A stretch of DNA of 64,000 bases from assembly GCA_012845835.1 (NCBI GenBank), contig JABAKD010000030.1, positions 10,639,805 to 10,703,804 of the forward strand. Reading direction: 5' to 3'. The DNA comes from Undaria pinnatifida. Lineage: Eukaryota > Sar > Phaeophyceae > Laminariales > Alariaceae. Numbering within the stretch: the stretch's first letter is position 1; each line of letters begins with the position of its first letter. The position numbers were made by a program, and so were the translations under genes. The notes below the pieces were generated by a model. It was not told where the DNA came from. It did not search any database and saw only the letters and a list, made by a program, of their open reading frames with translations. Of the stretch, positions 321-53,847 are shown piece after piece.

Positions 321-2799
321 GCTCCTCAATGCCCACTACACACCTCTACCCCGCGAGTAAACCCCAGGGAAGAGCACTAAAAGGATAAAGGGAAACTCCG
401 TTGTAAGAGTGGGGTCGTCAGACGCTGGAGCTACCTCCACAGCTATAGTGACGGGGAGACGAAAGATAAACTAACAAGGTTGTTAAAAGTTTCCCAAGGA
501 GAGCGGGCAGTACTTCTATTATAAATATTAGAACTACATGTCATGCTGCCTGCACGCGGGTCGTACAACTTCTTGTATTATAATACCGGTACCTTGTACA
601 CGATTGTACGTACCAGGTACATGCGTAGCGCGGAGACCGTACAACAAGCAAGACACCGCACACCCTCATTAACGTCCCAGCCGATTTCCTCCAAAACAAG
701 GAGGGCACACGCTACGCAACACGTAGCTCTTTCATATGCTCGACATTTGCAATCTCGTCGTTGTCGTGAAACTCAGCCGGAAAAATCGTCCGAGGGGCGC
801 GAGGGGGCATACATGGTCTTGCGTGTTATAGTACGCGGTAAGGCTTAATAACCCATATAAACCTGTCCTGTGCCATAACCACGAAACCTCAGCTGCTTCG
901 TGTGGCAGGTGCTGTAATGGTTATTTTATATGAAACCACTTTTCCTCCCTGAAGCCCGAAAGAAGTTCACTCCCTGCATCGCTCCACAGCTCTTGCAGTC
1001 GGCCCCGAGAGATTGACACGTGGAGGGTACTGCTGTTACTCTATAGAAGGGCAGTTCGATAGCTCTGAAGCTCTAACAGCAAATGGCTGCTGTCTCGCTG
1101 CCGTGGTAGATGTCGTGAGTACGGCAGCAGCCTTCACACGAAGCAGCATTCGTGGACCTCTCTGTCTGGCAGTTTCGACGTTTATCATAATGCCTGGTAT
1201 TAATAATCGTGTAGTCTACCGATTGCAGTAATCGTAGGATTGTACTCGTAACTCGTAGGATTGTACTCGTAGGATTAGAGTTTGTTGCATCCTTCACTTA
1301 AACTGTCAAGCTCAACTCGCAGGAGCTTTGATCTCTCAGTCCCTACGGACGAGCTGCGATGTCTGGTGATAGTGTACCCTTCAAACCAACGGGGGCATGC
1401 CTGAAATATTTTCTAATTTGCCATGTACCACGGCGCCAAAAAATAGGGCTCATGTCCAGCCTCGCGTGCCCGAATCTCCGCGTCCCGTCTGGAAACTGCA
1501 ATCTCCCCAAAAAAGCAGACCGGCGAACGGTAGAATTGTTTTACACCATCCCCACCCTGTCGTGACTACTACTTGACTACTACTTGCGTGCGGTTCGACC
1601 TGTCTGCTTCCCATGAACGCACACAGCAGTAGTTGACCACAGGTACAAACATCCGCCAAACATCCACCAGCGCGAGTTCCTATCGAGAGTTACAGCAGAT
1701 CTTCGCGCAGACGGTTCAGCATTCCCCTTTCTCGTCGATCGTCGACACGCATCGGATTTTGCAGATGTAAACCAGTGCCAAGACTAGACTACCATCTGGA
1801 CCGTACGCCCGTACCATGGTAACCATTAACAGCAGATGTTTGTCGACCTGGTTAATCGTACGTGGTTCCTGGTACACATTAGATCCAAAAATGTCCGGAG
1901 CCGACTAGCAGCGTGACCAGTAGCAACCCGCAAAACGGGTGCACGAAGGTGTTGCTGTACTTTCAATGTCGACCACTTTATTAATGATAGTTTCACACAT
2001 GCCGCCACAAGAGGCGCAGGGGCATGTGCGGCTCGTAGAGAGCCTTGCGAGTGCGTCCAATGCACTGCCGCCGCTGCTGAATGTCTTGCCTGCTGCACGT
2101 AAATCGACAAATCGTACTCTGTAGCTGGTATAAATATCATTAGGGGCTACACGCTGCTCCAAAGACAAACTCTTATGTACGTTCCAAACGGGGGTTTCAC
2201 GGCGAAAAAACAGGCGCCTGCCACAGAACACGCACACTACGGAGCGACACACATGCCAGGGACAAAAAACAAAGTAGCCACCTCAGAGCAACGGTACAGG
2301 GAATCCTTTGCGCAAGTGTCTTCTCTAGCTCAATGCTCACCAAGCCATCGATGTGGACCTCGTTGATTAATGGTATCTCCTTGATCGGCGCTCGCTCAAC
2401 TGCCTCCGTGCCCCATGCCCCAGTTGACATAGTGCCACTAAGCTCTCGAGCTGAGCACAACAAATACCTCCGACTGCCTGGCTGGTCAGCTGTGCGCAAG
2501 GTCGAGCAACAGAGACAGGGCAGTGGGAGGGGTGAAGGCCGTTTTGCGGGGCAGAAAAAGACACAGCCCCTACTAGTTTCGGCCAATATTTTAATATAAA
2601 CTCCTGCCGACTCAAATTTCAAAATTCTGTGCCGCAAGTTGAAAATTGCCCAAAATTTTTTTTTTTCTGAAATAGTCTACTTCATGACTAAATAGCTATT
2701 CATGACTTGCTCCTCGCTCGGATTATGTGAGAGAGCAGCACAAGGCTGCAAGATTTCTTTTGTCGCCGTCGTTGGAGCAACCACGCAAAATAATTTTTG
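321..2799. other. Gene-free stretch, nothing recognised
   Basis: I see no gene, tRNA or repeat family member here. Short open frames occur on both strands (for example 543-848 + and 2197-2637 -), but they overlap each other and show no motif. It holds one copy of the TACCAGGTA 9-mer (611-619) and a T-run at 2657-2667. Confidence 0.5.
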
Positions 2800-3287
2800 A
2801 TGTTGAGGAGAACAATGATCGTGCAAGTGTCGCTCATCTGCACCGTTGCCGGTGGACGTCCGCTGCCATGCCGAAGCTTGTCCCTGCTATGGAGAGCCCG
2901 ACTGGGAGCTAACGCAGCAGACAAACTGATGCCACTCCGAATGGGAGGTGGAAAAGTTGCTTCTTCTGCTGTGCGGGGACCGTTTGCCTCGTTGAGGCTT
3001 GGTGGCCATTGGCGCCACGCTGCCGGCTCGCAGCTAGCCTGGCGAAAGGGTAGCCACATCCGCAGCGTCATCACCGCCCCGGAGGTCAAGGGAGCCGAGC
3101 AGCAACTGCTGCGGCAGCGGAAGCAACAGCAACAGCAAACGGCGACGGCGAAAGATACCACAGAAGATGCTGGACGGGAGGTGGCAGCCGCAGGGGGCGA
3201 GATCATCAACGACGAAGGAAACGTGATCCGAACGTTCAAACCCGACACCAAGCGGATGTTGAAAATACCTCAAGAGGAATGGCCCAG
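2800..3287 (+). CDS. Probable first coding exon, Arg-rich leader, unknown product
   Basis: An open frame starts at ATG 2800 (an in-frame TAA lies just upstream at 2791) and ends at CAG|GTGAAT, a good splice donor. It gives 162 complete codons plus two bases. The first ~90 residues are rich in Arg, Ala, Ser and Gly, short of acidic residues and contain RMGGGKVASSAVRG, like a mitochondrial or plastid targeting leader. Then comes a Gln-rich stretch (LLRQRKQQQQQ), an acidic stretch and a compact segment containing EIINDEGNVIRTFKPDTKR. I do not recognise the family. The following exon could not be placed with confidence in 3288-4480. If the donor is not used, a stop follows immediately (TGA at 3290). 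Being coding is likely; organelle targeting is inference. Confidence 0.5.
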
Positions 3288-4486
3288 GTGAATCGAATTG
3301 ACAGCGTGTGCAGCCTTGGCCGCTAGCTACATGGAGGTGCTTGGCAGCTTTGCAACCGTCGCGCTATCTTGCTGTGCACACACTCGTATTATACAAAAAG
3401 GTCTGAGGTCTACTAAATACTATTGATACCAGGTAAATACTGCTGCGTTGTTGTTGCATCGCTCGCATACTGCCCACCTCCTATTTTTTATTCTGTGATT
3501 TTTCAATTTTCAAGTTTTTTAACGGTCCATTTGTCCATTCGAGCATGAACACAGCCAGTCAAGCACGCAGACGCAGCGGTGTCGCAAGCGATCATCACGC
3601 GTATAGTGTGGTTTCTGCTATGCCTGTTCTTACGGTAGCGCCCCCTGTGTGGATGCTCTTGGGGTGAGATACCTCGGCGTACTGGTGGCAGTGGCAGTGG
3701 ATGCGGCTCCGAGCTAGCCAGAGCCCGCAGCCGCCGCGAGGACCCGGTCTCGCGACGTGATGAACGCCAGGTATCATTCTTATTGAGGGTCAGGTGGATA
3801 TTCAGGTAAATAATGAAGACCAGAAGAACAGCCTTCGCTGACTTCGACATTTTCGTAAAGCGGATACTGGAAATCTTTGAAAGTGTGGCATGATAGCTGT
3901 TGTAGCAGTGCGGCACGGACACTTATGATAAATACGAGTAGCGAGAGCGCGTGCCCCCCTGCTGGCCCGGAGCATCTATATCTTCGGCAACACACTCTAC
4001 TCGTCGTCGTGTGGCTCTTGGTGCATGATCGATCGCGACACTTCGCGGGTTATACCTTCCGCGTGTTCTTCCAGAAGAGAGGGAGAGGGTAGTCTATACT
4101 TGTATCTAGTGCAAGCACATTCAATTGTCTGTAGCGTTAATATTTAATAATTGTAGTGATCCCCGAACCCAACAAGGTACCTGGTTTCTATGGACTTGTT
4201 AGAGTTGTGCCTGCGTGCCAACCAGAAGCACCGGCACCATCAGACTATAACCATAGCGGCAACCGGCACTGCTCTGTACACTTACACTACTCGTACAAGT
4301 ACCGAGTCTCGTTGTTCCCATCCATCTGTGCCAAACGTTTTCACAGGCACTAGACTATAGCGGGCAACCCGCTCCTACTACAGCTGTCTGCTGTCTGTAT
4401 GATACAACCGGCCCGATACAACCACAAGCAAACGACAAGACAGAACACCAACAAATAACTCACATAGTAGTCTAGACTATATTACA
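3288..4486. other. Putative intron and intergenic sequence
   Basis: This follows the probable donor at 3288. A GC-rich patch at 3640-3770 and several CAG acceptor-like sites (for example before 3555) could hold small exons, but none gave a convincing open frame in the required phase. It contains TACCAGGTA at 3427-3435. Confidence 0.3.
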
Positions 4487-4575
4487 AGTACCAGCAACGC
4501 GGCTTGCAAAGATGAGTATTGACCCTAAATTCGTCGAAATCACACCTGACGTCCTTCAAACATTTTCATAAAATA
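4487..4575 (-). repeat. Rep-A copy (short form)
   Basis: Read on the minus strand this gives GACGTCAGGTGTGATTTCGACG followed by ACTCATCTTTGCAAGCCGCG, the core of the Rep-A family. The core contains GTGAGTTCGA in better copies, which resembles a pol III B box. Confidence 0.75.
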
Positions 4576-5504
4576 CAACGCAAATACAACCACTCGTAGT
4601 CCATACAAAAAAGCTCTTTGTGTTTGCCTGTTTGCACATGATACGATACATACATCACACTTTGAGCATGAAGTGTATGATGTTGATGTGGCGACTTAGT
4701 ACTTCAAGAGTGCAAACGAATACCGGCTACTGGCTGGCTATTAAAAGTAGATGAGAACAACAACAACCAGGGATCTGGACCAGGGACACATATCAGTGAC
4801 CTGGACAAATGGTGCTGGATGTCGATGGGGGTATGATAGAAAAAACGATACGCACACACAGCAGTTAGCAGCAGCACAGGCGCTGGCAAAGCGACCTAAG
4901 AACATCTTATTAGGTTAAATCAGCCTCTACCCAATACGGCTGTCCCCGCCCTCGTCATCATTGCTCGTCATCATTGCTCGTCATCATGGACGAATGAATG
5001 GATGGCGTGCTTGAGCAGTGAGCATGTGTGAGGTGTACTCTTGTTCTTTGCGTTTCTGGGTCGAATAGAATTTCACACCTTCGGAACTCGGCCGTCAGCC
5101 GCCGAAATAGCACAGCATCCGATCCCTTGAACTTCTTCGTTTCGTGATTAAGTTTTAGCAGAGATACGAGAGCGTACCAACTAAACTGGTGTACCTGGTA
5201 TCATGTACCAATCGATAACTCTTTAAAACACGATAGGGCAAAAATTTGATTTAGAGCCAAAAATATAGGCATATCGTCTTTTGTGCCTACGTATCTGCGT
5301 ACCGGAAGTGGTCCTAATTGTTTTTGCACGCTTTCCGTCGACGCAGACTACAACCGCCGTATCCAGAAATCGAGTAAATCAGTGTCTAGAATTCAGTTAC
5401 AAATTACAGGAGTGCAAGCAAATGCAAGCCTTGCACAGCCGCCTCGTGCTGGGTTGTTGGTGTAACCAACGCGTACAGCGAGTACTGACATCTGGTACTT
5501 TTAT
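4576..5504. other. Gene-free stretch
   Basis: No gene recognised. It contains a small direct repeat of TCGTCATCATTGC near 4955-4985 and TACCTGGTA at 5192-5200. Confidence 0.5.
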
Positions 5505-5690: not shown

Positions 5691-5760
5691 GCGGCCTGAG
5701 ACTCATCTTGAAAAAATCCTTTCAACACGTCACCTGTGAGTTCGACGGGTCGATACTCAT
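5691..5760 (+). repeat. Rep-A copy (short form)
   Basis: It carries CGTCACCTGTGAGTTCGACG and GGTCGATACTCAT, and sits between two LINE tails. Confidence 0.6.
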
Positions 5761-6573: not shown

Positions 6574-7829
6574 CATTAACTCTTGTCAAACATCTAGAGT
6601 CCGTGGTCACACAAGAGGTGCTGGAGCCCTAGGAAGGTCCGAAAAACCAAATGAAATCAAAATTCGTCCGGGAAATACTACGCTTCCCCGCCTAAAAACG
6701 CACGATACGAAGAAGGCGCACAAGTGAAATGATCCAATGTGCAAACTGAACTCACATGGCCGCGGCTATCCACTCAACTACGACAAAGAGTTCCTCCGTT
6801 CCCACAACTAGCCAACTCGCGGCTACAAACTACAGCGGTTGGGCTGCCTGCACCGTACGAACCGCACGGTGATCGTTAGCACAGACGAACGCGCCTGCTG
6901 TCTGGAATGCTGTAAGAGTGACGACCCGCGGGCATGCAGTGAAAAAAGGGCAATCGAACCAAAACCCACCTTACAAATATCAATGATCGCCCCGTCTTTC
7001 CGAGTTATCTGACAGGTTGAAGTGCAGCTACGACGCCCGTGCCTGAAATTTGAAAATTGCGGGGGGTCGTTCCCCATGAAGGGTGGGTATACAACTCTCA
7101 CCAACTCTACAAAATCAGTAACAACGTAAGTAACATGTTGTACTACTGCCTCGTAAAAAACCCTGAAAAAAGACGATCGCTGCTCTCGTGATGATGGTGT
7201 GCGTACGGGTCGTGGGTCTCCGCGTGCCATCCTCGTGCTGTGGTTCTACATGGCCGCCTCATCGCCTCAGCTCACTCGGCCTGCTTATTCGCAGTTGCTC
7301 TCTTTGATGCTCAATTCCAATCGGTTCCCCTTCTCCCCCGTCCCAAAAAACAAAACGCTCCTCGCAGCTTGCGGTGCTGATTTGAAAAACAAAAGTTCTT
7401 GTTCAGGGAGAGTTCAATCCGTCTCTGCCCCGCCCGTAGACGCTCAGTCGCCCTCCTCCTTCGTCGTCGAATCCAGCCTCCTGCCAGCGCAGTTTCCTCC
7501 ACTCAAACCAAGACTGCGCCGTAGTGTGGTTCGTGGTGGCGCCTGCCTCCGCGCACGAGCATCCCGATTAAGCATTGCTGCTCCGCCGCTGCTGCCTAAA
7601 AAGACGCGCGAATCGTAGGTGACCATGCCTAACGTACCACGTACGACCCAACTCTACCGCCACGCCTAAGCCTCGCGGCCACACGCAGCAGCAAGAAGGT
7701 ATCACTCCATGAGGGTGAGTCCGGCCGTACACCCGCCAGAAAGACCCCCCCCACTCGTTACAAGCTTGCTATTATTAATAGGGCATGCCTCGCAGCATGC
7801 CTTACCGAGGCGGCAAGGGGAACGGAGGA
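6574..7829 (-). mobile_element. Rep-C: 1.25-kb retroelement-like repeat, copy A
   Basis: A second copy lies at 8674-9923 in the same orientation with only scattered differences and a 9-bp insertion near 7770. Read on the minus strand, the element ends with TGTGTGACCACGGACTC and GTTAATGTGAGGCAACA, resembling the LINE 3' tail. This argues for a retrotransposed, non-autonomous element. Frames inside are shared by both copies: a minus-strand ATG frame at 6823-7230 starting MARGDPRP, and an Arg-rich frame near 7311-7502. No known domain is seen. CAAATTTCAG before about 7050 and TTTGTAAGGT near 6970 look like a splice acceptor and donor, so a captured exon is possible. Confidence 0.7.
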
Positions 7830-9923: not shown

Positions 9924-10010
9924 TTCTACCCCCGCTCTCGATTCTGACGCCATTTTCTCTGCTCTGCTCCAGTCGTCAGTTTACTGCCGTACAAACAAGT
10001 GTAATCGACG

Positions 10011-10359
10011 TTTTTTTTTTTTTTTTCGCACACGTTTACTTTCCAGCTTCTGGACAAGCCGTGGTCACAGGTGTCGTCCCTTCTTCCCCCCGGTTCTTGC
10101 CTTCAATTTTATTGCGCACAGGGTTCAGCAATCCCACTGCTCGTCGATATTTCAGCGAGTGTTGCTAACTCACGCTCTCGCGCTTTCCGCAAGTCAATTT
10201 GTGCGCAAGAAAAAGTCCCCACGAATTCATACGAGTATGCACTGGGGGGTATTCGAACTCACGAAACTGACCTATACCAGGCTCGAGGATAATAACCTGA
10301 TACGCCACCGGGGCGACCGGCTATATCGATATAGACACCTGGTCTGAATGATGATGTTT
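10011..10359 (-). mobile_element. SINE-1, full-length tRNA-derived SINE
   Basis: Read on the minus strand it starts with a tRNA-like head: GCCCCGGTGGCGTATCAGG carries an A-box-like TGGCGTATCAGG, and GTGAGTTCGAATACC is a B-box-like site. A unique body follows (GTGAGTTAGCAACACTCG, CAAGAACCGGGGGGAAG), then CCTGTGACCACGGCTTG and an A-run of 16 (10011-10026 on the plus strand as T). Length is about 335 bp. The head does not fold into a full tRNA, so it is tRNA-derived rather than a tRNA gene. Confidence 0.85.
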
Positions 10360-10703
10360 TTTCCGCAAGTCCAGTTGTGCGCAAGAAAAAGTCCCCACGA
10401 ATTTATACGAGTATGCCCTGGGGGGTATTCGAACTCACGAAACTGACCTATACCAGGCTCGAGGATAACCTGATACGCCGCCGGGGCGACCGGCTATATC
10501 GATATAGACACCTGGTCTGAATGATAATGTTCTTTCCGCAAGTCAATTTGTGCGCAAGAAAAAGTCCCCACGAATTTATACGAGTATGCACTGGGGGGTA
10601 TTCGAACTCACAAAACTGACCTATACCAGGCTCGAGGATAACCTGATACGCCACCGGGGCGACCGGCTATATCGATATAAACACCTGGTCTGAATGATAA
10701 TGT
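10184..10703 (-). repeat. Three tandem copies of the SINE-1 head
   Basis: Units 10184-10359, 10360-10532 and 10533-10703 (about 173-176 bp) each contain the tRNA-like head with the A-box- and B-box-like sites and end at TTTCCGCAAGTC. Only the first unit is joined to a full SINE body and tail. Confidence 0.9.
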
Positions 10704-15272: not shown

Positions 15273-15375
15273 CAGGCTGAGATTTAGTAGGAAAAATAAT
15301 AAATCCGGGAGCCATCATGCTGAAGTTAGTTTTGAACGCACCCCTTTCTAAGAAAAGAGCCCAGCCTCGGTGATT
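15273..15375 (+). repeat. Rep-D copy
   Basis: It shares GAAATTCGGG(G/A)G, CTGAAGTTAGT and GAACGCACCC with the copy at 43692-43790. The LINE 5' junction abuts it. Confidence 0.6.
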
Positions 15376-17424
15376 ATTTACCTGGTATGTTTTTTATTTG
15401 ATACCAGGTATCTTGTACTATACATAAGGAATTTTTGCATTTTACACGTCAGGCGGCGAAAAAACAGTTCTGGTCGTTTAGACCGTTGCTAATGGCAAGG
15501 TGGTGATTTAACCAGAAAGTTTCTATTATATTTTGACAGTACTTTCCTGAAGAGATTGCCACATTATTGTCATCCCTGTGGGGAAAACGATTGAGGCATA
15601 TTTTTTTCTGGTTCTTTGAGGGTCCAGCGGCCCAGTTCGCCAATTTTTATGAAGACTCGGTCAACGTTGTCCAACAACCACGGTTGACCTTCGATCTCGA
15701 GATAGACAACCAACTAACGAGCGTAAACGTTGACCGCTGTGGCAGGCTTGACTTCACACAGTTAGTAGGTATTAGTAATAGTTGGGTGGGGGGGTAAAAA
15801 CCAACTTGCTTACATCTTGAGATAAGTAACACCGCCACGTCGAGCCGGAAACGTGCCTGTCAGATGCGCGATGCGCAGACAGACGCAGTATTGGTTTGCC
15901 ACGTGACTGAAGCAAGTCAACATGTAGTTCCTTCTAACGAACACAACGTATGACTTTAGGGTTCGGTGCTGATCTCGTCAGCGTTGGTCTTTGGGACACC
16001 CTCTCCATGTTGTACATAGTACCTGGTAAACATCTACAAGCAGGGACACATTATACTGTTGAGCATTAGTTAGCTCACAAGGACCTACCAATGACATACC
16101 GTAGTATGCTTTGGCAACGCCCCCGTCCTTATGTTGTCCCCCCCCGCCAAATGGCCGACAAAGTGATAAAAACGTTGTGTTATCCCGGGGGAAAAGAGCT
16201 TTATAATATTTTCTTGACGAATTCCCCCCTCATTCTTTGGTATCCCTGGGGTCAACTTTATGATGAAAAAAAATTGCCTTCCTCCGGGGGACAGCTCGAA
16301 AAAACGATGTCACGCCGGAGAAGAGAAGATAAGATAAAAACAGGAGGCATTACTATTAACATAGTGTTGAATTCCGTTTTACAGTAGGAAGTATAAATAG
16401 ATACAAACAGGATTCATGGTCTCTACTTGTCAACCATTTCACGAATTTGCACGGATAAACCGCGAGTTAGTTCGCAGAAAACTGATAAAAGAACCGTCGG
16501 GGACTTGGAAGCCCCCCGATCGTTGGCGTGCGCGATTTTAGATGCTGTCGGTAGCGCGAATTCCCGTGTGTGGTCTTCGCCCATCGCATCTCCCCTTTTC
16601 CGGGACAGAAAACCAGTTCCTGTGCCAAGGTTTCTTGTTTCGGCGAACAGATCAACGTTGATTGAGGAGAAGAATCAAGTTGTTGTAGTAATAGTGTTGC
16701 GCCCTCAGTACACAACGTGTTGTGGCTCATCACCAAAGAGGTGATCCCGACATCGACGTACGTTTCCTCACCGGTGGTGCCAGTAACAGTTCTGGTATCG
16801 CCAGTGTCGGCCCTTAAGCGACGTACGCAGATCTACTCAATCCGAGGCGGCCCCACGCCCCCCTTGCCGGTTGTTACGGGAAAAAAACATACCAGGTATA
16901 TATGCACGAAATACATGGTTACCTGTAGTATGGCAGGAGGCTCGTCATGATGATGTAGACTCTTCTGATTATGTGATATATTTGCAATATTTTATGTCAG
17001 AGTTTAAACAACTTCAAGAGGAGAGATTAAACTGCCCCCCCCCCCCCCTATTAGCAACGCTTACCAAAGTACGCGCAGGGTCGGATGCACGACGCTTACA
17101 CCCCGGCAACTTTTTGCTAGATACGACCTCCCTACAGCAGTATTTTTTACCAGGTATACCATATGTGTTCTACCAGTAGATTGCGTCAGAAGGAGTGATT
17201 GACGCACGTGGACGTCAATTATAATTAGCCCCAACAGCTGATGGCAGCGAACAGCATTGTGTCCCCGGAAGACACAGTAAGTTAGTGTTGTGTTCACGAC
17301 ATATCTGGCTTCGAAAACGCCTTTCAGCAACGATAAGCGCATTGCGATCATTTCATGCCGAGTCATTTTCTTTGGGGGGAGGGTATCGTTCGACTTTCCA
17401 GATCGGTTGCAGAAAATAATGAAC
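15376..17424. other. Gene-free stretch
   Basis: No gene or known repeat is recognised over about 2 kb. It is unusually dense in the TACCWGGTA 9-mer: 15379, 15402, 16020, 16890 and 17148. A C-run lies at 17034-17048. Short frames such as 16427-16744 have no motif. Confidence 0.5.
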
Positions 17425-17665: not shown

Positions 17666-19738
17666 GGGAATAGTCGTATATGAATGATCAATTTTGGAGT
17701 CAAAGACGAACATAGATCAGTGCGAGATTGTTAGATATTTCGTTTTTGGTTTGCCGAAGCTCGAACAAGTTTTTAGGAGCCGACAATAGGCCTTTCCGAA
17801 CACACCAACTCCTCGCCGCACAGCATGCGGAACATCGTTGGCGTAGCACTGTTTTCTGCCGGACACGTCACGTTTTTACTCCAGAGCATCAGAAACCGGC
17901 AAGGCACATTGGCGAAAGGCGTGAAGGAGATCGCGCTTATTGAGTGGATACTGGAGGATAGCGGCTCGGACACATCCCCAACGCCTAAGCGGAAGAGGAC
18001 ACCAGATCACCCTACGCCACCATGTTTTTTGTTCTTGTGTTGTTCGAGGTAATGTTTTTTATTGGGCATTGCGAGTAGAAACTTGTATGGCAGGCAAACA
18101 TGGACCCAGCGCAGTCGTTGCGAGATTGCCAGTTATCAGGTGCTTCTTTCGTAGAGAAAGGTTCAGAGAGACACGTCTTTCGAAAAAGGACGGTTTTGTC
18201 CTTGGTGGGCCGACAGGAAGTTACCTAGATTGCGAAGAGCGGTTGCATTCCAGGTGGGGCGGTTGCATGATAACGATGGTATTTAAACAGGTGCATCATC
18301 AGCACCCTCATGTTTGTTGAGACTGCCGTTCGGGGAAGGATTGGGGAAGTGGAACGTTCGCATCAACGCCCCCAGATTTCGTTGAGGCGGCCGTTCGGGG
18401 AACGGGGATGGGGGATGGGCTTGAATTGTTGAATTCGTGTTTTATTATTACATTGGGCCATTGTCCATGTTGGAAAACCGAAGGAAAATATCAGGTTGCC
18501 ACCCCACGCTACTTTGGACATGGGTGAGTAGGAAAGAGGTTGGATTATACCTTGTACTTCGGTTAAGGCTCAGAGCGAGACTGATTTGTCGTTTCCGTCG
18601 GGATCGACGGTTCTGTCCAAGTGGTATTCCTTGAAAGAGATACGGTATATGGAGTAGGAATAGGCTGTCGCCTCCTAACTAGATGGGAGAACCAGGGTTG
18701 CCGTTCAAGTTTTACGTTCGGATCGCGTTGAGTTCGTTGAGCGTTTCAGTGATGCATACTTCTGGTTGCCATTAAAAAATTGACGTGGGATTACTGCGAC
18801 GACTTGTTACCTTGCGGTAATTGCTTTTGAGTGCAAAACCATTTGGTGATCTAGTAAAAAGAAGGGTGGGCCAATGCGGTGAGAATAATTCAGTTGGTAA
18901 TTTGATGAACATGAGTCAAAAGTTCACAACGTAAGTTGAGAATTCAGGGTGGAATGTATCCAAGGAAGAGGTTAAGACACCTACATACGAGTACCTGGTA
19001 TTGGAGTTGCTCTTCGCTCGTCGTCGTCAGTAATTCTTGGATTAGGATATGGATCTAGTCTATGTGTATCTGGGTTGCTGAATTATAGACAGGTTGTTGT
19101 AGGAGGCGGAAAGATCGTCATTGACCTCTACGTAGAACAGGAAAGAGTTGAGGAGATGAATGTTGGGGTTTAGAACTGTTTGCCAGCGAGTAGTTGTAAG
19201 ATCGGAAAAGCCGTTTTGAGAGCAGATGTCGCGGGAGCTCTTGTGGTTCCCCTTTCATGTCAAAAGATTGTCGGGTGGGGCTTGGAGCCGTCTCGAATCG
19301 AAGCGAGATGGCAAGCCACCGGGGTCGGGTAAGCTGATGTGGGCGAGCATAATGCGAGGGTAGTCAGTATGTGGCGGATTGGTAGGCGGACAGTAAAGGA
19401 GAAGGATAAAGAAAGCTCAATTACACAGGACCCATCGATCATCAATCACATTTCTTGACTATTCATAGTTCTCGAAGGCAGAACAGAAGGAGCATTTTTT
19501 CGTCAGACGAGAGAACCTGCACATGTGTTGTACGAGTATAGACATCTCGCGAGCACACAGCAGCGTCTTGCGAGCGAGATTCGCCAAACCGAGTGAATCG
19601 AGTCCACCTCTTATAGCACCCCTACCTTTTTGCTCACCCCGCGGACATTTCGTAGAAAAACAAACGCTCGATCCAGGAGGCGTGGACAGACGATATTACC
19701 GCCTTAGAATAATGATGTAGTCCAGGGACGATTAAACG
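17666..19738. other. Gene-free stretch
   Basis: No gene recognised. GCCGTTCGGGGAA is repeated near 18325 and 18390. TACCTGGTA is at 18992-19000. Open frames such as 17940-18320 are short and without motifs. Confidence 0.5.
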
Positions 19739-19815
19739 TTGCTGGCAGGAAACGAACCCTCGAACAACATTTTTGTTATATACGGTAGTCGTATGCGCTA
19801 CCCACTAGACTGCTA
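19739..19815 (-). repeat. tRNA-like sequence
   Basis: The minus strand reads TCTAGTGGGTAGCGC (A-box-like) and, about 45 nt later, GAGGGTTCGTTTCCTGCC (B-box-like). The would-be acceptor arms (upstream of TCTAG and CAGCAAC downstream) do not pair, so this is a tRNA-derived remnant and not a functional tRNA. Confidence 0.5.
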
Positions 19816-20039
19816 TTAATAAGTCACTTGAACACGCAGAACTCCGAAAATATCGGGAGGCACGTAGATGCAATACCTACAAGAGCTCCGCTCCGCGGGC
19901 AGCCGATGCCGCCCGCTACACTCACGCAAGGAAGAATACAACTAAATGTGAAAATGGCAGAGAGAAGAGGCCCATGATGTGGTTCAAATAGCGATTTTAA
20001 AATGCTAGTGCTACTTGTACAGAGCTGATTGCCCTGTGC

Positions 20040-20520
20040 TGTGCTGTGTGCTTGTCGGCGATGTCATGTTCTGATCGGCAGTACGGGTGTAATTTGCGGG
20101 GGAGGGGGAAGATCAAGACGACCGAGACCGGACAATCGAAGGAAGAAAGCAAAAAGACGAGTACACACGTACATACTGGTGCCTGGTACCTGGTACTTCG
20201 CATGATACCCGGTACTGCCGTAAAAAAAAAGCACAGCGCAGGACGGCACAGCACCGCGTGGTAGGACACGGCACCGCACGGCGCTTCGCTGCTGAGCTTT
20301 AGCTGGGAGTGCATTTTTTGTGATTCAAAAACGTAGCGCGTACAAACCTGGTGTGTAGTAGTGCCAGTACCTGGTATGGTAATTCGATTGATACCTGGCA
20401 AATGACGAAAGAGTAAGCACAGCAGAGCATGCAGCACGGCACAGCACGGCACAGAACCGCACAGTACCGCACGGCAGGGCAGGGCACGGCACTGCACGGC
20501 GCTGCTGAGCTGAGCTGATG
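20040..20520. repeat. Low-complexity GCACGGCACAGC clusters
   Basis: Clusters at 20225-20290 and 20415-20510 are built from variants of CACGGCACAGC and GCACGGCA. TACCTGGTA occurs between them (20187 and 20368). The long minus-strand frame here (19997-20731) is a by-product of this Cys/Ala/Leu-coding repeat. Confidence 0.7.
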
Positions 20521-22480: not shown

Positions 22481-23094
22481 GTAGCTGCACGGTGAACGGC
22501 AGCTTGTGCACCTCAATATTTACAGAACGGCTACCAGAAGGAAAAAAAAAATGTACGTACGAATACAAACGGAAGCAGACTCGACGAAAATAATAGTGTA
22601 TGCGTAAGCTGAGGTTTTGTTTCTGTACACCTTGTCGCGGTGCAGAGCAACAGGCAAGGGGAGTCACTGCTTGGGCTTTTGGCGTTTGCTTGCTTCGCTC
22701 GCAGACTTCTATTGTTTTTATAATATACCAGGTAGCTTTTAATGTCTCTTCTGTCTCCACAAATGCTCGGTGCAAGATGCCAACACGGCTTCGATAACCA
22801 GCCAGACACAAAAACGGAAGCACAAACAAAACAAACGGAAAATAAATCCATTGACACATCCCTGGTACCAGGTGTAAATACTACTCTGTGTAGCTGCCAA
22901 AGGGGTAAAAGGAATATGGCAGTTTTGGGCGCGGTCAGGCACGTCTTTGGGGGCCTTTATTCTAAAACCGGTATACTATTGTAAGTTTAGACCGCCGTCC
23001 CGAACAGGCGTTAGCTGCTGTCTTCCAAAAGTTTGTGCGTGTCATTCACTTTACACTGATGCTTGCAGGGCTGCTCGAGGGTTGACTGGACCAC
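22481..23094. other. Gene-free stretch
   Basis: No gene recognised. It contains TACCAGGTA at 22726-22734 and a related GGTACCAGGTG at about 22864. Overlapping frames on both strands at 22464-22984 have no motif. Confidence 0.45.
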
Positions 23095-23280
23095 TACAGC
23101 AGTAGCGGGTCGGATTGGGTCAAGTTGATCCGACCCGACCCGACCTGACCCGCGATATTTGAAAACCTCCTCAACCGACCCGATCCGACACGGGAAGTTT
23201 CGAACACCTCCTGACCCGACCCGACTCGGCCAGCGAGCTATTCAAAACATCCTGGCCCGACCGCACGGGCCGGATCATGA
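23095..23280. repeat. CCCGA-rich minisatellite
   Basis: About three units of 45-60 bp, each made of CGACCCGACCCGAC variants followed by a TTGAAAACCTCCT, TTCGAACACCTCCT or TTCAAAACATCCTG end. Confidence 0.7.
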
Positions 23281-24065: not shown

Positions 24066-24224
24066 AGTGTTTTGTTGTTCCTTTTCTTATTGTTCGTTTT
24101 GTTATTAGGTGATCCACACTTTGTATCATCTTGTTCGGTGTTCAGGCGTCGCTCACCTGTTCGCCACCGATCTCGGGGCTAGCATTACCTGGTACATCAT
24201 AGCAGCTGAATCATACATATATCA

Positions 24225-25805: not shown

Positions 25806-26004
25806 AGAATATTTGTGTATGTAGCACCATAGCAGCTGTATCATAGACGGGGGCATGGCGGCACATGCTTTCCACTTTCGAGCAAGGGGTATTGAAGGGG
25901 ATTTTAGCCAACGGGTGGAGACCGTTGTTTGGTTGGTAAGATATGCCGGGTATGACATTTGAAAAGGTATCCAAATCCCCAGTACCAGGTATACCTGGTG
26001 CAAT
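25806..26004. other. Short gene-free stretch
   Basis: No gene recognised. TACCAGGTATACCTGGT at 25983-25999 holds one exact and one near copy of the palindromic 9-mer. Confidence 0.4.
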
Positions 26005-26359: not shown

Positions 26360-27322
26360 TAGGGCTGTGGGTTGGCTGGTGTTCCCGCCTAGTTATTGAA
26401 GGCTGGCGAAGCCAACCAAGTAGTCGACTAAAGTCAGGCGAGTGAATCGAGCCAAAAAGCCCCCCCCCCCCGGCCGAGGGGGCCCCGCTGGAGGCGTCCC
26501 CTGAGGGCCCGCCGGAGGAGCCTCCGGAGGATCCCACTGAAGGCGTCGCCGGAGGCGAAAAATAAGCGATATTGTCATCGGTGTGTACTCAATAAGTGTA
26601 GAAAATGGCAAACTTTAGCTCTGGGTTTATCACGAAAAAGGGATATTTTAAGGTTGGTTTTTGTCTTTCAGTTTATCGCACTTTATTATGGGGATGCACC
26701 GTAAATATGGACATGCCGTCCCCGTTTTGGGGGTCGCTCACTGGTGTTGCATTGTCTCGTAACCGTAAATACTCGTGCGGCACGCGGCAAGTAGCACACC
26801 ACCGGTAAAATACCACAAAAAACAACATACCAGGTACAAATTAGACTGGGATATATTCTACGACAAGACCATAAATAATGGATTATTCATCGTCGGCGAT
26901 CCAAGAACGGTTCAGAGTTTAGCCAGCCCTCCTTCTCTGTGCGGTAACGAACCGCTTCCTTGTCGCGCACACTCGGTCGCGGAGAAGCAATTGGAACGGC
27001 CACTTGCTCGACGGGCGCTCCTACACTGCCTTGGTCTGTTGACAGGCCAGGCTCAGCGCTGCCGGTACCTTCGGCCCTGCCATCGGCACCGCCACAGTCG
27101 ATCGTGATGTGTTGGTGACTGTGTGCTCGCAGCGTGGTGGTACTGCTTGGAGACACCGAGAAATATGTACCCCGTACCAAACGAGCCTTCCTACAAGCAA
27201 GGAAACCCAAGTGCGAAAAATAGTTGAACAGTTGGCACCGCCGCAACAAACTGTGGTATCTACAGTAGCCAACTACTGTAATAACAAGCTGGCGGCTTTT
27301 AGCCAGCCAACTCACAGCCCTA
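26360..27322. mobile_element. hAT-2a: non-autonomous hAT-type element, 963 bp
   Basis: The left end reads TAGGGCTGTGGGTTGGCTGG; the right end read inward is TAGGGCTGTGAGTTGGCTGG. A perfect 8-bp target duplication GATACCAG flanks it (26352-26359 and 27323-27330). Inside the left end is a GC-rich block (GGCCGAGGGGGCCCCGCTGG, GCCGGAGGAGCCTCCGGAGG). No transposase is seen. Frames that cross its right boundary, such as 26887-27477 (-), are chance frames. Confidence 0.93.
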
Positions 27323-31570: not shown

Positions 31571-32384
31571 AGTTGAGGTGTTTTGACATTCATTGAACTT
31601 AAAATAATGCCAAGAGTTTAATACGAACATGAGATTATGAAGAGCATAATTTGACAGAAGAAAAACGTCATATATAGCAAAAAAGGCAAGGATAGGCGAA
31701 ACACTGCTGTTGTTGTTATATGCGTCGTCAACTAAAAGTTCGCGTATATCAAACGAAAATACCAAAAATAGTATTGAGAACCTGCTTCGCCTCTAGGCGA
31801 AACGAAAGAGGACTTGGCGTCATTTAAGAGAATGTACCACTGTCCCCGTGGCAATGGAGGTTCGAAGTCGACAGGATGCAAAGTCGGTTTGCATCAAGCG
31901 TCGACATGGGGCCATATCAGCCGGCGAGGTTTTGGAAGAAGAGCTTTGTCTATCACCTGAAGGCTGTCGCATTGATTGGTCTGCGTGATCACGGGCGAGG
32001 AGGAAAACGAAGAAGAGGAGAGCTATCTTCCGTTGCGGCGGCGTTGTCTAAGATAGATGCGGGGTGGCTTTGCTCGTACGGGAGGTTGGCGTAGCGCTTC
32101 TTCTTGTTTTTACTCGGGAAGGCGGGATGTGTGCATCTGCTGTCTTTGCTTCTCGGGTGCTTTCACGTTGTCGAAATCGGACACGTCCCCTCGATAAATA
32201 ATATTCGGAGTGTCTCTACCATGAAGACTGCTGACAGTGCCGTGCGTATTTTCTACTTAAAGAGACTTGAAAGATTATTTACTGGTAGTATTAATAGTAG
32301 TATTTTTTCGTTTCGGACTATGCGCACGGCCGAAAAGGTCGATGTTTAGTATTTTTCATTTCCGACAGAAAAAAAGTAGGCGCA
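31571..32384. other. Gene-poor stretch with one possible small ORF
   Basis: An ATG frame at 31876-32094 (+), 72 codons, begins MQSRFASSVDMGPYQPARFW and has a basic centre (GRGGKRRRGE). I do not recognise it. Nothing supports it except composition. Confidence 0.25.
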
Positions 32385-33172: not shown

Positions 33173-33610
33173 GTGCTGCTCTTGAAGCTCGGAATTTGGA
33201 AACAGCGTACCAGGTGAATATCGTTGACTATTATTACAGATTATTTACTGCTGTATAATCGATTGCTTGCGCACACGACATGTTGTCAAGAAGATACCTA
33301 TTACTACCACTACTATAGATTGCTGCTGTGCCATCGATCAGTACGCCCCGCGTTGAGCCGTTCTCGGAAAAAGAACTGCCCAGGAATCCCAAATCCAAAA
33401 TCGTCGCCGCGATTCTCGGATGTGTTTCTTATCTACCGTACCTAGTACGCGTCCACGACCAGGTATGGGGGACGGATAAGGAAGGCGTTGAACAGCGCCC
33501 TTCGAACAAAGTGATTTGACGGAGAAATCCTACAGCACTGCCCCCACGGAGCTACTTAATCACTCATCAATGACTCAGTAGCTCAGTGGGTAGCGCTACA
33601 GAATATGTTA
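33173..33610. other. Gene-free stretch with Rep-E end fragment
   Basis: At 33475-33530 there is a Rep-E 3' end (GCGCCCTTCGAAC, TGATTTGACGGAGAAAT). At 33573-33600 a tRNA-like TAGCTCAGTGGGTAGCGCTA is present on the plus strand without a matching T arm. Confidence 0.5.
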
Positions 33611-35504: not shown

Positions 35505-35880
35505 TCAGGTGTATTGCTCTACGTACTGCTGCATTGCTGTACTGCAGTACTGGGTAGGTTCGTGGGTGGATGGTGGTTGGTGGTGGGTGGGTGATGGGTG
35601 GGTGGTGGATGGGTGGTGGGTGGGTGGTGGATGGCGGCTCGCTCGCTCCCCGAGATGGCCGAGTATCATCGTCAAAAAATGAAACTCCCCTCGTTTGTTT
35701 CCTGCTTCATACAAGGTCCTCAAGAACCAACCTACTAACTGCTCCTCGCGTACCAGGTGTACTGCTGTACGTACTGCTGCACTGCTGTAGTGCTGTATGT
35801 AGTAAAGGTTTGGTCGGTGGGTGGGTGGAGGGTGCACTGCGTCGACCGTGGTGGGTGGGTGGGCCGTTCCGTACCTGGGA
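35505..35880. repeat. Duplicated TGCTGTAC / GGTGGGTG low-complexity block
   Basis: Two blocks (35505-35625 and 35745-35845) each consist of TACTGCTGCA-type repeats followed by GGTGGGTGGG-type repeats, both starting CAGGTGTA. The long plus-strand frame here is a by-product of this composition. Confidence 0.7.
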
Positions 35881-36300: not shown

Positions 36301-37111
36301 TGCCCGCTGTACTCTCCACACAAAAAAAATTACCAGGTACGAGCGAGTGTAGCCTAACGCAGTAGCGCATTTTCCGGTACACCATCAACAACCACCGGTC
36401 CTTTCTTAACACGATAAGAAAGAGCCCCACGACTGCAAGGGGATAGGTCTGCGTACATTGCAGTGAGTGGCGGTTTTTCTTTTGCACTCTGACAGGCCAG
36501 GCGGTGTGATAGTCTGAGTTGGGTGACGTCGTGCGTCGTGATAGACGTATGTCGGTCGCGCGGCTGCCTAATATTTTAATGCGTGATATTATCTGTGTCG
36601 ATCAGCTAACAGGGCCGGCAAAAAGGACGAGCGGGCGGGGGCGGGAGGACGGCTCGTCATCATCCTCGCGCGCAACGAAACTTTTCACATCAACTCTATC
36701 CAACCAATCACCTATTCATAATAATGGCATTATTTGTTTTCGCGGTTTCTTATTTTTGTCGCCGAGAACACCAGCTTGCTGGTGGACGCGGTGCGGTGTC
36801 TAGGGGTGAGGCCACCGAAGGAAGGGCGCGCACTCTTCCGTGGAGATACATTTGTTTTGCGATCATATTTGTACATATTGTTTTTCGCGGATCGAGGTTG
36901 GGGAAGACACGCAACAAGGAATGGCTTCAGGTGTTCCGATGCAGTCTAGGCCGGTACTCTCAGGCACGCTGTCGCTTCAAAACAGAATGTGCAGGAGGTG
37001 TGAGGGGTGGTATACTAAATCCTAGATACTCGAGGGTTAAGTCACTTCATTATTTTTTCAAATTTCCAAGAGCAGGCTATGAATTTTGTATTCCTACGAG
37101 GGATCGATGCT
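36301..37111. other. Gene-poor stretch with overlapping open frames
   Basis: An ATG frame at 36724-37155 (+) starts MALFVFAVSYFC, and an overlapping frame at 36734-36949 reads NTSLLVDAVRCLGVRPPKEG; neither matches a known family, and the first runs into a SINE-2. A CCAAT-like CCAACCAATCACC lies upstream at about 36700. Coding status is unresolved. TACCAGGTA at 36331-36339. Confidence 0.3.
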
Positions 37112-44995: not shown

Positions 44996-46009
44996 CCTTA
45001 AAACTGAGCGAGTCGTCGGAAGCTCCCAGTTTGAGAGAGGCAAACGGGCGACTCTGTCGAGAGCGCGGTCTGCTTTCTTTCTGCCTCGCCCGGACGCACA
45101 CCTATGAATAGTGATGCTGCTGTACTACTTACTGCTGTACCGGACGCTTGACCTGATCTGACCTGCGACTTATAACCTGCAATATTACAGCGTGGCGCGG
45201 CCAGCAAAACCTCGGCCGTACGTACTAGTATGAGCAAATGGTGACGACGATGGTTTTCGTTGTTGGCTGAACTCGTCCGACCAAAAACTCATCGTTGGAA
45301 GCTCGTGGTGCGATGCGTCGGTGACACGCGGCGCATGTACGTCTTGTGAATTACACAGATGGGTCGGTGGCTCCCTTCTTGGCTGCTGGGTGATACTGCT
45401 GTCAACACAGCGACTAGTGGGTACGAGTTGTGCTCCGTATCGTCCCGCTTTTTTCTCCCATAATGACATTGTAGTGCCGCCTCGGGTGAAATGTTGAAAC
45501 CGTTGGTAGGCTCGTGGTCTTACAGAGATCAATTGATGGGTATTAGTCTATATAGATATTGTGTGATATGATTGGTGGTGTGTGGTGTCGTTCCTTGTCG
45601 TTTGCTGTTGCTCGACCGAAACGCTGGGCTGGTGTTCGATTTGCCTGTGAATCGCTCGGCCTCGCCTAGCAGCAGCAACAGAAGCAGCAGCAGCTGAAAA
45701 ACCACCTCACTTTCTGTGCGTCCGCCCTGTTCGTCTATCTCGCGATTTGCAGAGGCCCACCGAGCACAGCGACCAACATATGCTTGCTTGGTGTGGATAC
45801 CGATGACAAGGGCTCTGCTCTCGTTTTCCTAAAAATGTAACACCAGTCCCAGGTACTACTAATAATTAATCGTCAAGTACCAAGTACGTATGGTCTATGC
45901 AGTTAGTATCCACAAAAGTTGTGTCTCATCAGGATTAGGATCTTGAATTTGCAAAAAAAATCATTTTTTTCGCCCAGTAGCCCTTTTTCCGTTGAACCGA
46001 CGATGACAT
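44996..46009. other. Gene-free stretch
   Basis: No gene recognised over 1 kb. A 115-codon minus-strand frame (45185-45532) has no motif. A CAG-type run lies at 45670-45695. Confidence 0.4.
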
Positions 46010-46195: not shown

Positions 46196-46479
46196 AATTT
46201 ATACGAGTATATTAAATGTGAAGATTCTGAACACGAACATGTATGTAGTCGTACGTCGTAATGAATCGAGCCACGTCTCACTTTTTCCCACTTTCTCACA
46301 AAGAAGAAAGTGCCCGTCACTTCTCACTTTCCTTTGTCTTCTTCGACAATAATACCGCATACCTGGTACATACGTTTTCGTCTTTCTTTAGTACGCGACA
46401 GCACTTGACGTACGTAGGCTTACTTCCGATTTCATTTGTTTACGTTTCTGGCGGATGCATGATGACTTGCTTCAGCTAC
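46196..46479. other. Short gene-free stretch
   Basis: Nothing recognised except TACCTGGTA at 46360-46368. Confidence 0.4.
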
Positions 46480-46800
46480 GTTTTTTTTTTTTTTCGCACA
46501 CTTCTACTTTCCAGCTTCTGGACAAGCCGTGGTCACAGGTGTCGTCCCTTCTTCCCCCCGGTTCTTGCCTTAACTTTTTATCGCGCATAGGGTTCAGCAA
46601 TCCCACTGCTCGTCGATTTTTCATCGAGTGTTGCCAACTCACGCTCTCGCACTTCCCGCAAGTCAATTTGTGCACAAGAAAAAGCCCCCGCGAATCAATA
46701 CGAGTATGCACTTGGAGGGATTTGAGCTCACGGAACTGACCTATACCAGGCTCGAGGATGCCCGATACGCCACCGGGGGCAACCGGCTACGTATGATATA
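46480..46800 (-). mobile_element. SINE-1, full length
   Basis: On the minus strand: head ending GGTGGCGTATCGGGC, B-box region CGTGAGCTCAAATCC, body GTGAGTTGGCAACACTCG, CAAGAACCGGGGGGAAGAAG, core CCTGTGACCACGGCTTG and an A-run of 14. Collinear with the 10.0-kb copy. Confidence 0.87.
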
Positions 46801-47030
46801 CCAGGTACCTGTATGCGTGTACCACCTTTGTAACTGCATACCGACTGCTGTGTACGACCTTTGTAACTGCATACCGACTGTGTACGACTTTTTTTTTTTT
46901 TCTTTTTTTGATCCCACCTTCTGCATATCTGGGTAAACGACCTTTGTAACTAACTACCGGTAGTTACAAAGGTGTTACACGCATACCGGTATATCATACG
47001 TAGCCGGTCGCCCCGCCCCCGGTGGCGTAT
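46758..47030. repeat. Inverted duplication containing the SINE-1 head
   Basis: The left arm (46758-46833: GATACGCCACCGGGGGCAAC, GGCTACGTATGATATACC, TGCGTGTACCACCTTTGTAA) is repeated in inverted form at 46958-47030 (TTACAAAGGTG, CATACCGGTATATCATACGT, GGTGGCGTATCAG). CCTTTGTAACTA and its complement form an extra 12-bp palindrome near 46950. Arms are ~70 bp, so a cruciform or hairpin is possible. Confidence 0.8.
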
Positions 47031-47034
47031 CAGG

Positions 47035-47150
47035 GCTTGGTTTTTGCCTGGGTTATTCTTCCACTCCAGAGTTACTGGAGCCTCTCCTGTGACCACGGAC
47101 TTGATTATGCGAGATAATGTGTGAACAATGACAACAACAACAACGATAGA
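47035..47150 (+). mobile_element. LINE-A 3' tail fragment
   Basis: GGGTTATTCTTCCACTCCAG, the hairpin CTCCAG-AGTTA-CTGGAG, CCTGTGACCACGGACTTG and GATAATGTGTGAACAATGAC with a CAA tail. Confidence 0.8.
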
Positions 47151-48554: not shown

Positions 48555-48564
48555 GCAACGTCGC

Positions 48565-49394
48565 GGGGGCTGCCTACTCCTACGAGAACAGTATAGTAGG
48601 GTCGCTCAAAACCCATTATCATGGTTGATGCCCCCGATGCTTGGTTAGATGTCGTCGTCTGCTGCTGTGTGTCTATATACATAGTAGTTGCTGGTTGTCA
48701 GCTGTGCTTCTGTTTTTTCAGGTGTTCTGGTGCTTGCTGCTGCTGATGATGATGATGACTGATGATGACGTGTGGGTCAGAAAAACAAAGCTTTATTTTT
48801 CCCCACCGCCGGAGGATGTTCTCGCGTTTGAGCTTGGGGGATATCATAAACAAAGATCCAGCAATAAAATCTCTCTGCTGTTGCATCCAAAGTCGAATAC
48901 AACAATCTTACTTGCGTTCGCTACTGCTGTATTATGGACGATCATTGTTTGCGGGTTGTCTTCGCATTAAACAAATCGGTTTTTTTCAAGTAATATTGTT
49001 TTCAAAATAAAAAATTTGAAACAATCCCTGACGCCGCCACACTCACTCCTAGAGAGGCCAAAATGAAAACAAATCGGGGCGTCGGGATTTACTCAACCAA
49101 GTACCTGAACATGTCCTCTCCTCCCCGTCCTATATTATAAAACTATATACCTAGACCTCGCCCCCCTCGGACGTCTCGCTCGGCATATCCTCCCCCCTCT
49201 CAGCCCTTCTCAGCCCGTAATTGCCGAAAAGAAAATTAGTTGCTGGGGAAAAGAACCGTCCCGAAGTTCCTTGCCTTTCTTGCTTTCCCTAGTCTCATTC
49301 TTACTTAGCTCTCATTCTCTCATCTTTACTGCTTGCTCTGATATTTTTATTTTGCTCTTTCAGCAACTTCTCTTTTGTACTTTTACTTTTGAAG
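48565..49394. other. Upstream region of the four-exon gene
   Basis: No repeat recognised apart from a GATGAT tract near 48745-48770. The segment 49130-49390 becomes pyrimidine-rich, ending TTTGCTCTTTCAG (about 49361) and CTTTTACTTTTGAAG (49394), either of which could be a splice acceptor. A 5' exon carrying the start codon is expected here or further upstream, but I could not fix it. Confidence 0.4.
49133..49142 (+). promoter_or_regulatory. Possible TATA-like element
   Basis: TATTATAAAA lies about 260 bp before the first placed exon. It is suggested only by sequence and position; AT-rich words are common in this region. Confidence 0.2.
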
Positions 49395-52037: not shown

Positions 52038-53847
52038 CAGCACGTTCTTTATAGAACGTTAAGTTGTGGTTTATTATACCAGCATCGTTTTTCGAGAACT
52101 ATGCCTAAATGCGTGCTCTTCGTCTTTCAGGAATACAAATGTACTTCACATGTTTGCGGTGTGTGCGTTCAAGTTCCTGCTTCCAGCATGTTTTTTTTGG
52201 CACTGCGCTCCTTTACATCTTAATTTGTAGTTTTCCTGTCTCTATCCTTGACAAGCGAGTGCCTGGTGTTTATGCACTGCGATAATTTATTAGTGATGAT
52301 CGACTTAGAGAGAGCTATTAATAAGTGTACAGGTGCTACCTGAGAGGTGGAAGGATATGCCAAGCAAGTCCTCCGACGTGCCCATCATGGACTGGACGAA
52401 TGTATGATAATAACAATCTCATAATCATAATCGTCTCTATCCTGTACCGTTGTACTATATATGGACCTCTTGGCATTTTCAAGTCGCCAGTTGCGCCATT
52501 TGTGCTTCTTTTCCGCCTTCCTACTGAATGTCCATTCCTCCTTCCGCAAGCGTAGCGGGCGGCGCCCAGCCGCCCGCGAGCGAAGCCCTTGTAGAGATAT
52601 ATCATAACCGGTACTACCAGGTACTGCTGATGTGCTGCGGTTTATGCTCAGCAATAGTATTTATACTAAGATACTGAAAGCACTACTACTTCAGTCACCT
52701 GCTATTTCTGTTGTTGGCTCATAGTAATCGTTTTTATAACACTCTGGGAGGCGTGTGTCTTTAGCATTTCGTGCGCGATGCCCAAGTATGTATGCATGTA
52801 CAAGGGCTCCGCATGGGTGCCGGCATTCGCCGGCACCCATCACCATCATGTATGTACGTATGTATTATGCGTCTCCTGTACCATACCTGGTATGTATGCA
52901 TATAGATATTAGGTCCCCTGCCTCTCGCCTGTGGTCTGGACTTACACATTGCTGTACAGGTGTAACATTGATTGCCGTCGGTTGACCGTTCGCGTTGCTG
53001 TTGCACTCAACGATCAACGCTAACAGAGCTAAACCTCAACGCAGTATGTTGTTGAATTTTATGATCGGTGGTGTTATGTTGCATGTACCGAGAGATCCCA
53101 CCAGGAAGTGCTTTCTGCTCGCTAACTAAAACACGAACAGCCTACGAACCGCCCCTAAGATCCGGGCGGCAAGACTGTTAGGCAAGCGAGGTATGTGTGT
53201 ATGCGCACGCACTAATTCTTGGTCGACTAGCCCGCTTTACGTTGACTCGTGGCTAGCTTGTGGCATGTCTCTTTCGAGTACACTCCCGGCCCCCTCCTCC
53301 TCCTTCCGACGCTAACACAACGTTTTTATAGTATGGCCAACTGGTTACGATCAGACCGTATCCCATGGTTTCCTCGCACGCTGTGTTGTTGTCAGTGTTT
53401 TTTGTGCGTTAATATGTGGTGTGTTATCTTCATATCAATCCAAGCCGTTCGTTGTTTCTACCCCACGACATCTATCTGATGTCACCAATCAGAGCACCCA
53501 GTGTCCGGGCGGATTGTTCACCCTGGAGAGAGAGATAAAAATTATGATGTGGTTACAGACTGAGACAGAGTAAACCACAAACAACGGCATTTTTTATCAT
53601 AATAAGAGTAAAATAAAGCAGCAAGAAAGTGAACTGCTAGCGTTCTGTTGGTGTTATTTTGACTGATGTTCTGCGACATGTCACGATGACATGTTTCTGT
53701 ACTATGTTGGTTGGGTGATATATGACGAACTTCGGACCCCGGGTCTGTGCTGAAATATTAGTACGAAAGAAGCATCACGTCGTCAGCCGCGTATAACCAC
53801 CCCGATATCATCGTATCCTAGAACGTGGGCGGGCAGGGATCTGATAT
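52038..53847. other. Gene-free stretch with two GC hairpins
   Basis: At 52556-52578 GCGGGCGGC-GCCCA-GCCGCCCGC forms a 9-bp stem. At 52805-52840 GGGTGCCGGC-ATTC-GCCGGCACCC forms a perfect 10-bp stem, a member of the hairpin family at 27418 and 31487. TACCWGGTA occurs at 52615 and 52884. No further exon of the upstream gene is certain. Confidence 0.5.

Follow-up and report, generated by a model that had tools for sequence, protein, structure and literature searches.

The palindromic 9-mer TACCWGGTA, in which W is A or T, is strongly over-represented in the genome of the kelp Undaria pinnatifida, and we consider it probable that the word is the footprint left by excision of a TA-targeting cut-and-paste transposon (Tc1/mariner/pogo-like). 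The window analyzed here is a stretch of 64,000 nucleotides (contig JABAKD010000030.1 of assembly GCA_012845835.1, positions 10,639,805 to 10,703,804 of the forward strand), in which a first-pass annotation made from the sequence alone had reported 20 exact matches. The word has an A/T centre and RTAY flanks, it separates paralogs as a whole unit with its TA duplicated, and its inner bases are one of four classes of residue that can pair with themselves apart from A:A or T:T.

From this pattern we infer the following course of events. The element would insert at RTAY and duplicate the TA. On excision, a cut in one strand at each end, five bases into the element, would give each flank a 3' overhang of CCAGG (or CCTGG). 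The overhangs would anneal at four of five positions with a central A:A (or T:T) mismatch, and repair of the mismatch to A or T would yield TA-CCWGG-TA, which exceeds the empty site by seven bases. Because two TA targets would be regenerated in every scar, later events may add further 7-bp units. Other families would leave TA-TTAA-TA scars (target CTAG), TA-GWC-TA scars and, probably, TA-CAGCAG-TA scars.

Enrichment and shape of TACCWGGTA

All 20 matches in the window were verified. The word occurred 0.25 times on average, and three times at most, in 100 dinucleotide shuffles of the window, and its order-2 Markov expectation was 0.41. When 9-mers of the window were ranked by log-likelihood, leaving aside those in which one base is repeated four or more times in a row, only three ranked higher, all of which were CAG-microsatellite words. 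The genome searched (511,146,479 bases in 68 contigs) contains 85,263 copies, as compared with 3,475 of the reversed-word control (about 25-fold). The over-representation was thus borne out, and the genome-wide count, which had been proposed as its check, lies far above the control and leaves it standing; the first-pass annotation was also right about the palindromic form, the CCWGG core and the variety of flanking bases. TACCSGGTA was found 9,212 times versus 2,599 for its control (3.5-fold), so the centre of the word is A or T. Words one mismatch away from TACCWGGTA numbered 169,756, and those of the control 72,670. Of 20 stretches of 10 kb asked for at one fixed offset, seven existed, and these contained 14 copies; the window is somewhat rich in the word but not special.

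In the window, scar-like sites that match exactly are present as TACCAGGTA at 611..619, 3427..3435, 15402..15410 (23 bp from the site at 15379), 16890..16898, 17148..17156, 22726..22734, 25983..25991, 26828..26836, 36331..36339 and 52615..52623, and as TACCTGGTA at 5192..5200, 15379..15387, 16020..16028, 20368..20376, 24186..24194, 46360..46368 and 52884..52892. The sites at 18992, 20187 and 46799 are described below with their paralogs. Twelve of the 20 sites lie inside one 12-kb span (p 0.002, for a span length picked post hoc). Genome-wide, close pairs separated by N{0,30} numbered 3,187, some of which are repeat copies. The control word formed 27 such pairs, and a Poisson process at this density would give about 441.

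The preference extends beyond the nine bases, and two flank signals are the strongest. In 66 of 84 cases (42 sites, both strands) the word is preceded by a purine and, correspondingly, followed by a pyrimidine, giving the extended form RTACCWGGTAY. The other signal is an echo of TA seven bases outside the 9-mer, which fits a 7-bp repeat unit; tandem words that share one TA and lie 7 bp apart are present among the matches listed. The remaining flanks are mostly unrelated, with 64 distinct contexts among 72 occurrences in a census of 184.6 kb. The earlier claim that the word belongs to no repeat family is only partly right: it does not apply to 18992 and 20187, which lie in two different repeats, nor to 46799, which has a local inverted paralog.

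Empty sites and self-pairing residues

The window was compared with further genomic stretches, numbered here L009 and so on (C1 is one contig). The clearest empty site is in a tandem repeat at L009:2715. Two copies have GTAC where one has GTACCTGGTAC, a 7-bp gain between flanks that agree at 42 of 42 positions (...GTGCGTACGTTGG vs ...GTGCGTACCTGGTACGTTGG, exactly seven bases being absent in the two other units); overall, the tandem copies are 94% identical.

In a joined-flank test, the flanks of each site were fused around a single TA and searched against the sampled loci with a threshold of 36/42. Paralogs at or above the threshold were found for 3 of 97 TACCWGGTA sites and for 0 of 97 control deletions; the 97 sites are not independent, since cluster and paralog loci are included. 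The first is L009:2715, matched at 42/42 by two copies. The second is TACCAGGTA at 46799..46807 of the window, where the inverted paralog, at about 46962..47036 on the minus strand, is without the 7 bp and matches the joined flanks at 39/42. The third is TACCTGGTA at 20187..20195, the second of two 7-bp units, for which four paralogs (L044-L047) match at 37-39/42 and have one unit. At such sites TA is duplicated around the residue and is single in the empty copy. Matches at L016:996 (self-overlap), L013 (microsatellite) and L064 (self-overlaps) were excluded. For the TTAA class, L017:1260 was matched among the matches listed (198 rows in total), with 1/26 in the control (a microsatellite); for the GWC class, GAC insertions at L007:584 and L054:33 were matched at 38/42 each, with 2/62 in the control (self-overlaps).

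A list of indels of 4-40 bp between paralogs, compiled without regard to the word, holds 61 distinct places, five of which are TA-duplicating insertions of the scar type. Two are at TACCWGGTA, with 7 bp at L009:2714 and 6 bp at window position 46805 (7 bp in the other alignment). The others are of the TTAA type: TATTAA at L010:6744, ATTAAT at L017:1261 and TATTATTAA at window position 7770. The last is the second-class scar TATTATTAATA at 7770..7780, a clean 9-bp gain relative to a 97% identical paralog near 8667.

The census mentioned above included cluster loci and counted words of the form TA-X-TA in distinct contexts, with near-identical contexts and TAC/TAG microsatellites excluded. Counts and expectations were 64 vs 1.49 for CCAGG, 25 vs 1.02 for TTAA, 14 vs 0.47 for CAGCAG and 39 vs 9.4 for GAC. 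Each of these four residues can pair with its own copy along its whole length, the only exceptions being A:A or T:T, as if single-stranded ends had annealed after excision, and ATAA (25 vs 2.03 expected) obeys the same rule. The list of enriched words also includes microsatellite and nested words. For CAGCAG, the same-strand form was found 14 times, and the mixed products CAGCTG and CTGCAG 0 times and once, as if one strand had templated repair of both mismatches. As far as can be judged from sequence, the residue fits an annealed overhang with its mismatch repaired: W at the centre of CCNGG is enriched about 25-fold versus 3.5-fold for S, and the four classes follow the pairing rule. A similar picture is given by a single TA in a young repeat, into which TA-CAG-TA, TA-CTTG-TA, TA-CATTTG-TA, TA-CAAATG-TA and GTC/GAC forms have been inserted. 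CATTTG and CAAATG are reverse complements, as are GTC and GAC, which is predicted for the joining of two identical 3' overhangs.

The second class had also been found independently, since TATTAATA emerged as a second dispersed palindrome with 21 copies versus 0.86 expected in 134 kb; genome-wide, CTATTAATAG occurs 13,768 times versus 462 for the control. In the window TATTAATA is located at 1198..1205, 19814..19821, 32289..32296, 52316..52323 and 54711..54718. The third scar-like class, TACAGCAGTA, is located at 17133..17142 and 23095..23104 on the plus strand and at 33246..33255, 35760..35769, 45130..45139 and 48922..48931 on the minus strand, and no empty paralog was seen for these six sites.

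Excision weighed against other explanations

Several results weigh against excision as the source of the word. The residues are 5 bases long for CCWGG, 4 for TTAA, 6 for CAGCAG and 3 for GWC, and five bases exceed the 2-4 described for Tc1/mariner elements (PMC7913693; this and the other articles cited by PMC number are drawn on in extract). Gain from no unit to one is visible at two sites only, and the difference at 20187, from one unit to two, could be tandem slippage. No empty sites were found in the joined-flank test for CAGCAG (0/24; control deletions 1/24) or CAG/CTG (0/61; controls 0/61). TCA (51 vs 18.0) and CGAG (20 vs 5.8) are more weakly enriched words that violate the pairing rule, and different units chained together in unbiased DNA gave 8 strand counts, from 4 sites, where 2.4 would be expected, a weak excess. 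The young repeat runs to thousands of copies, a related pattern having 3,743 matches. At its ATAC target, none of 49 insertions was TACCWGG, TATTAA or TACAGCAG; tandem duplication of the flank accounts for at least nine of the 49, and many belong to no class. The absence of TACCWGG there may mean that the activity is older than this repeat or that its target is narrower.

The donor weighs on the same side. No element with CCAGG or CCTGG ends was found in the DNA read, about 0.04% of the genome. When 71 other TACCWGG contexts were compared, no terminal repeat was shared among them; recurrence was confined to one dispersed repeat (6 rows) and one tandem repeat (3 rows). Of 24 inverted pairs, the best 12 were all scar-to-scar or T-rich, with no CCWGG, TTAA or CAGCAG pair of convincing length. 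With no donor found and a residue of unusual length, the word can be placed only provisionally in the known class of footprints.

The divergence and total number of the scars can be estimated roughly. Over controls, the excess of one-mismatch words is 97,086 and that of exact words 81,788. If the former are neutrally decayed scars, mean divergence would be about 12% and the number of events some 250,000. A transition bias among the one-mismatch words does not prove decay, because the control word shows the same bias. We propose only tentatively, and with somewhat more doubt than confidence, that the scars, on the order of 85,000 of them recognizable and perhaps 250,000 in total, go back to a single transposase lineage that targets TA and cuts with an exceptionally long stagger, and that its donors are nearly gone.

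The first-pass annotation had suggested a binding site for an abundant factor, a boundary or pairing site, or a preferred target sequence. It is unlikely that TACCWGGTA is a regulatory, insulator or architectural site of an abundant dimeric DNA-binding factor that is kept by selection. The sharp palindrome with its extended preference RTACCWGGTAY, the homotypic clusters seen as close pairs and the spread over the genome would suit such a site. However, the gains that can be seen, few as they are, are clean insertions of whole units with TA duplicated and not point mutations, whole 7-bp units distinguish paralogs, and several unrelated TA-X-TA words behave alike. Moreover, in the one repeat family where conservation could be compared, that of the site at 18992, the site is conserved no better than its flanks: over 26 copies, the nine site columns scored 0.949 versus 0.923 for the flanks, and 29 of 122 windows were more conserved, although this is a weak test because the copies were picked by similarity to the query. 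As to insulators, the Ectocarpus authors report the absence of CTCF and no evidence of canonical insulators in the extract cited (PMC11541908). Because of the insertion pairs and the conservation in the repeat family, we set the binding-site explanation aside; some of the sites may nevertheless have a regulatory use. The preferred target sequence was the nearest of the suggestions, since the sites do stand at RTAY, a favoured target; on the excision reading, though, the event leaves the word behind and does not target it.

Improbable, too, is the idea that the word is merely carried by old and diverged repeat families that have it in their consensus, without an origin of its own. The site TACCTGGTA at 18992..19000, for which 25 paralogs were aligned, is indeed inherited in a dispersed repeat and ancestral there, 13 of the 26 aligned copies (window included) having the exact word. 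Identical multi-site strings recur among the C1 pairs listed, and according to the genome paper 54.0% of the Undaria genome is repeats and 36.1% is unclassified (PMC7058681). However, 64 of the 72 contexts are distinct, and it would be left unexplained why the centre is restricted to W and why close tandem copies differ by 7 bp.

More improbable still, in our judgment, is that a transposase made short TA insertions and that a full element was never there, through abortive events or very small TA-bounded inserts. This would agree with the lack of a visible donor despite about 85,000 scars and with the many insertion lengths at one TA, but the fixed letters CCWGG need a source, and ordinary excision supplies one. 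It is hardly credible that DNA modification, repair or replication favours the word in the manner of HIP1, the highly iterated palindrome of cyanobacteria: both are short palindromes, strongly over-represented and dispersed among unrelated flanks, but the kelp word is gained as an insertion that duplicates TA and is accompanied by the parallel TTAA, CAGCAG and GAC classes.

Excision footprints remain the explanation we prefer, and they can be compared with those of known transposons. The footprint of Sleeping Beauty has a W-centred form, TAC(A/T)GTA. This transposon is nicked 3 nt inside the element, and its footprint is the 3' overhang (PMC7827188). As in Sleeping Beauty and Tc1/mariner elements generally, the kelp word has TA on each side and between them a few bases that would be end bases, from 3' overhangs joined after excision (PMC7827188). 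It differs in the length of its residues, which are five and also four and six bases long instead of 2-4 (PMC7913693), and in its abundance of about 85,000 copies in one genome, with no donor found in the DNA read. Stowaway, a Tc1/mariner-type miniature inverted-repeat transposable element (MITE) of Triticeae introns, likewise leaves short pieces of its ends at empty sites, bracketed by TA duplications; as described in the source extract, that was a phylogenetic case at a single locus with several footprints, whereas in the kelp one word dominates genome-wide. Passer, of the pogo superfamily, prefers the target AAGTACTT, that is, TA within GTAC (PMC9976928), and DDE_1 genes are present in the kelp genome, but the footprints of Passer are 0-4 bp (PMC9976928). 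Among the papers listed, no report was found of such scars dominating the words of a genome, and none, judged by title, was relevant to TACCWGGTA itself.

Cut-and-paste transposons are normally counted by their surviving copies. If excision is the source of the word, and if such scars are regular and frequent enough to dominate the word counts of a genome, they would be an independent and datable tally of past transposition that includes families whose donors have vanished, and the word count would be a fossil transposition count larger than the 30,267 DNA-transposon entries annotated in Undaria (PMC7058681, in the part consulted). Residues of five and six bases would also widen the range of transposon stagger described in the extracts cited above. 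For motif discovery, the case would be a warning against taking every strong palindromic motif for a binding site.

Transposases and neighbouring repeats

Profile searches of the genome gave 82 matches for DDE_1 and 8 for DDE_3. The mariner profile PF01359 had no match here or in the control genomes, so the absence of mariner is not shown. CCAGG or CCTGG donor ends were absent from the stretches of four transposase families, in which element ends were located for DDE_3 only. The DDE_3 element at L027 has TA on both flanks and was seemingly inserted in CATATG (boundaries placed by eye). The DDE_3 family of L025-L027 was rejected as the donor, as its ends are TGGTCCGTGCACAAC (TGGTCC...) and not CCAGG. 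The DDE_3 frames of L025 and L026 are 760 and 756 aa long.

In the DDE_1 stretches L058-L064, where element boundaries were not established, the DNA read contained no CCAGG ends. An inverted TACAGCAG pair in L058 was considered as the ends of a DDE_1 element and rejected: coding sequence lies outside it, with a weak, below-cut-off resemblance to CENP-B_N/HTH, and its left copy was read as intronic. In family F3 (L060/L064), the apparent start of homology at TA-GTC was likewise given up as an element end, because the alignment is ambiguous on the left and does not extend to the right end. Dense TAGAC/TAGTC arrays lie upstream of the DDE_1 transposase frame of L064, at about 970-1660, and a link of this DDE_1 family with the GWC scar class is possible. 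In the window, the sites at 15379 and 16898 were compared as a candidate terminal repeat; they have 17 of 18 letters in common, but the match runs into a T tract and was attributed to chance.

Some repeats in and around these stretches deserve mention. A (TAC)n microsatellite in L013, at about 1454-2378, is broken by TATTAA in several places, which looks as though scars had landed in it. L019 and L020 (C1, about 3.097 and 3.132 Mb) are copies 35 kb apart that are 99.7% identical over 4 kb and have the same scar cluster. A high-copy dispersed repeat with a tandem triplicate occupies 10010-10704 and 46480-46787 of the window; its search returned 4,142 genome candidates and cannot show insertions, because only the 40 best were scored. 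At 62259-63059 on the plus strand of the window, frames recognized by eye recall the end of a DIRS-like retrotransposon, and two of them that were tested had no Pfam match. The minus strand of the window at 12212-15283 holds the remains of a non-LTR (non-long terminal repeat) retrotransposon, in which a weak, below-cut-off endonuclease match adjoins a reverse transcriptase domain (PF00078, 1.1e-34).

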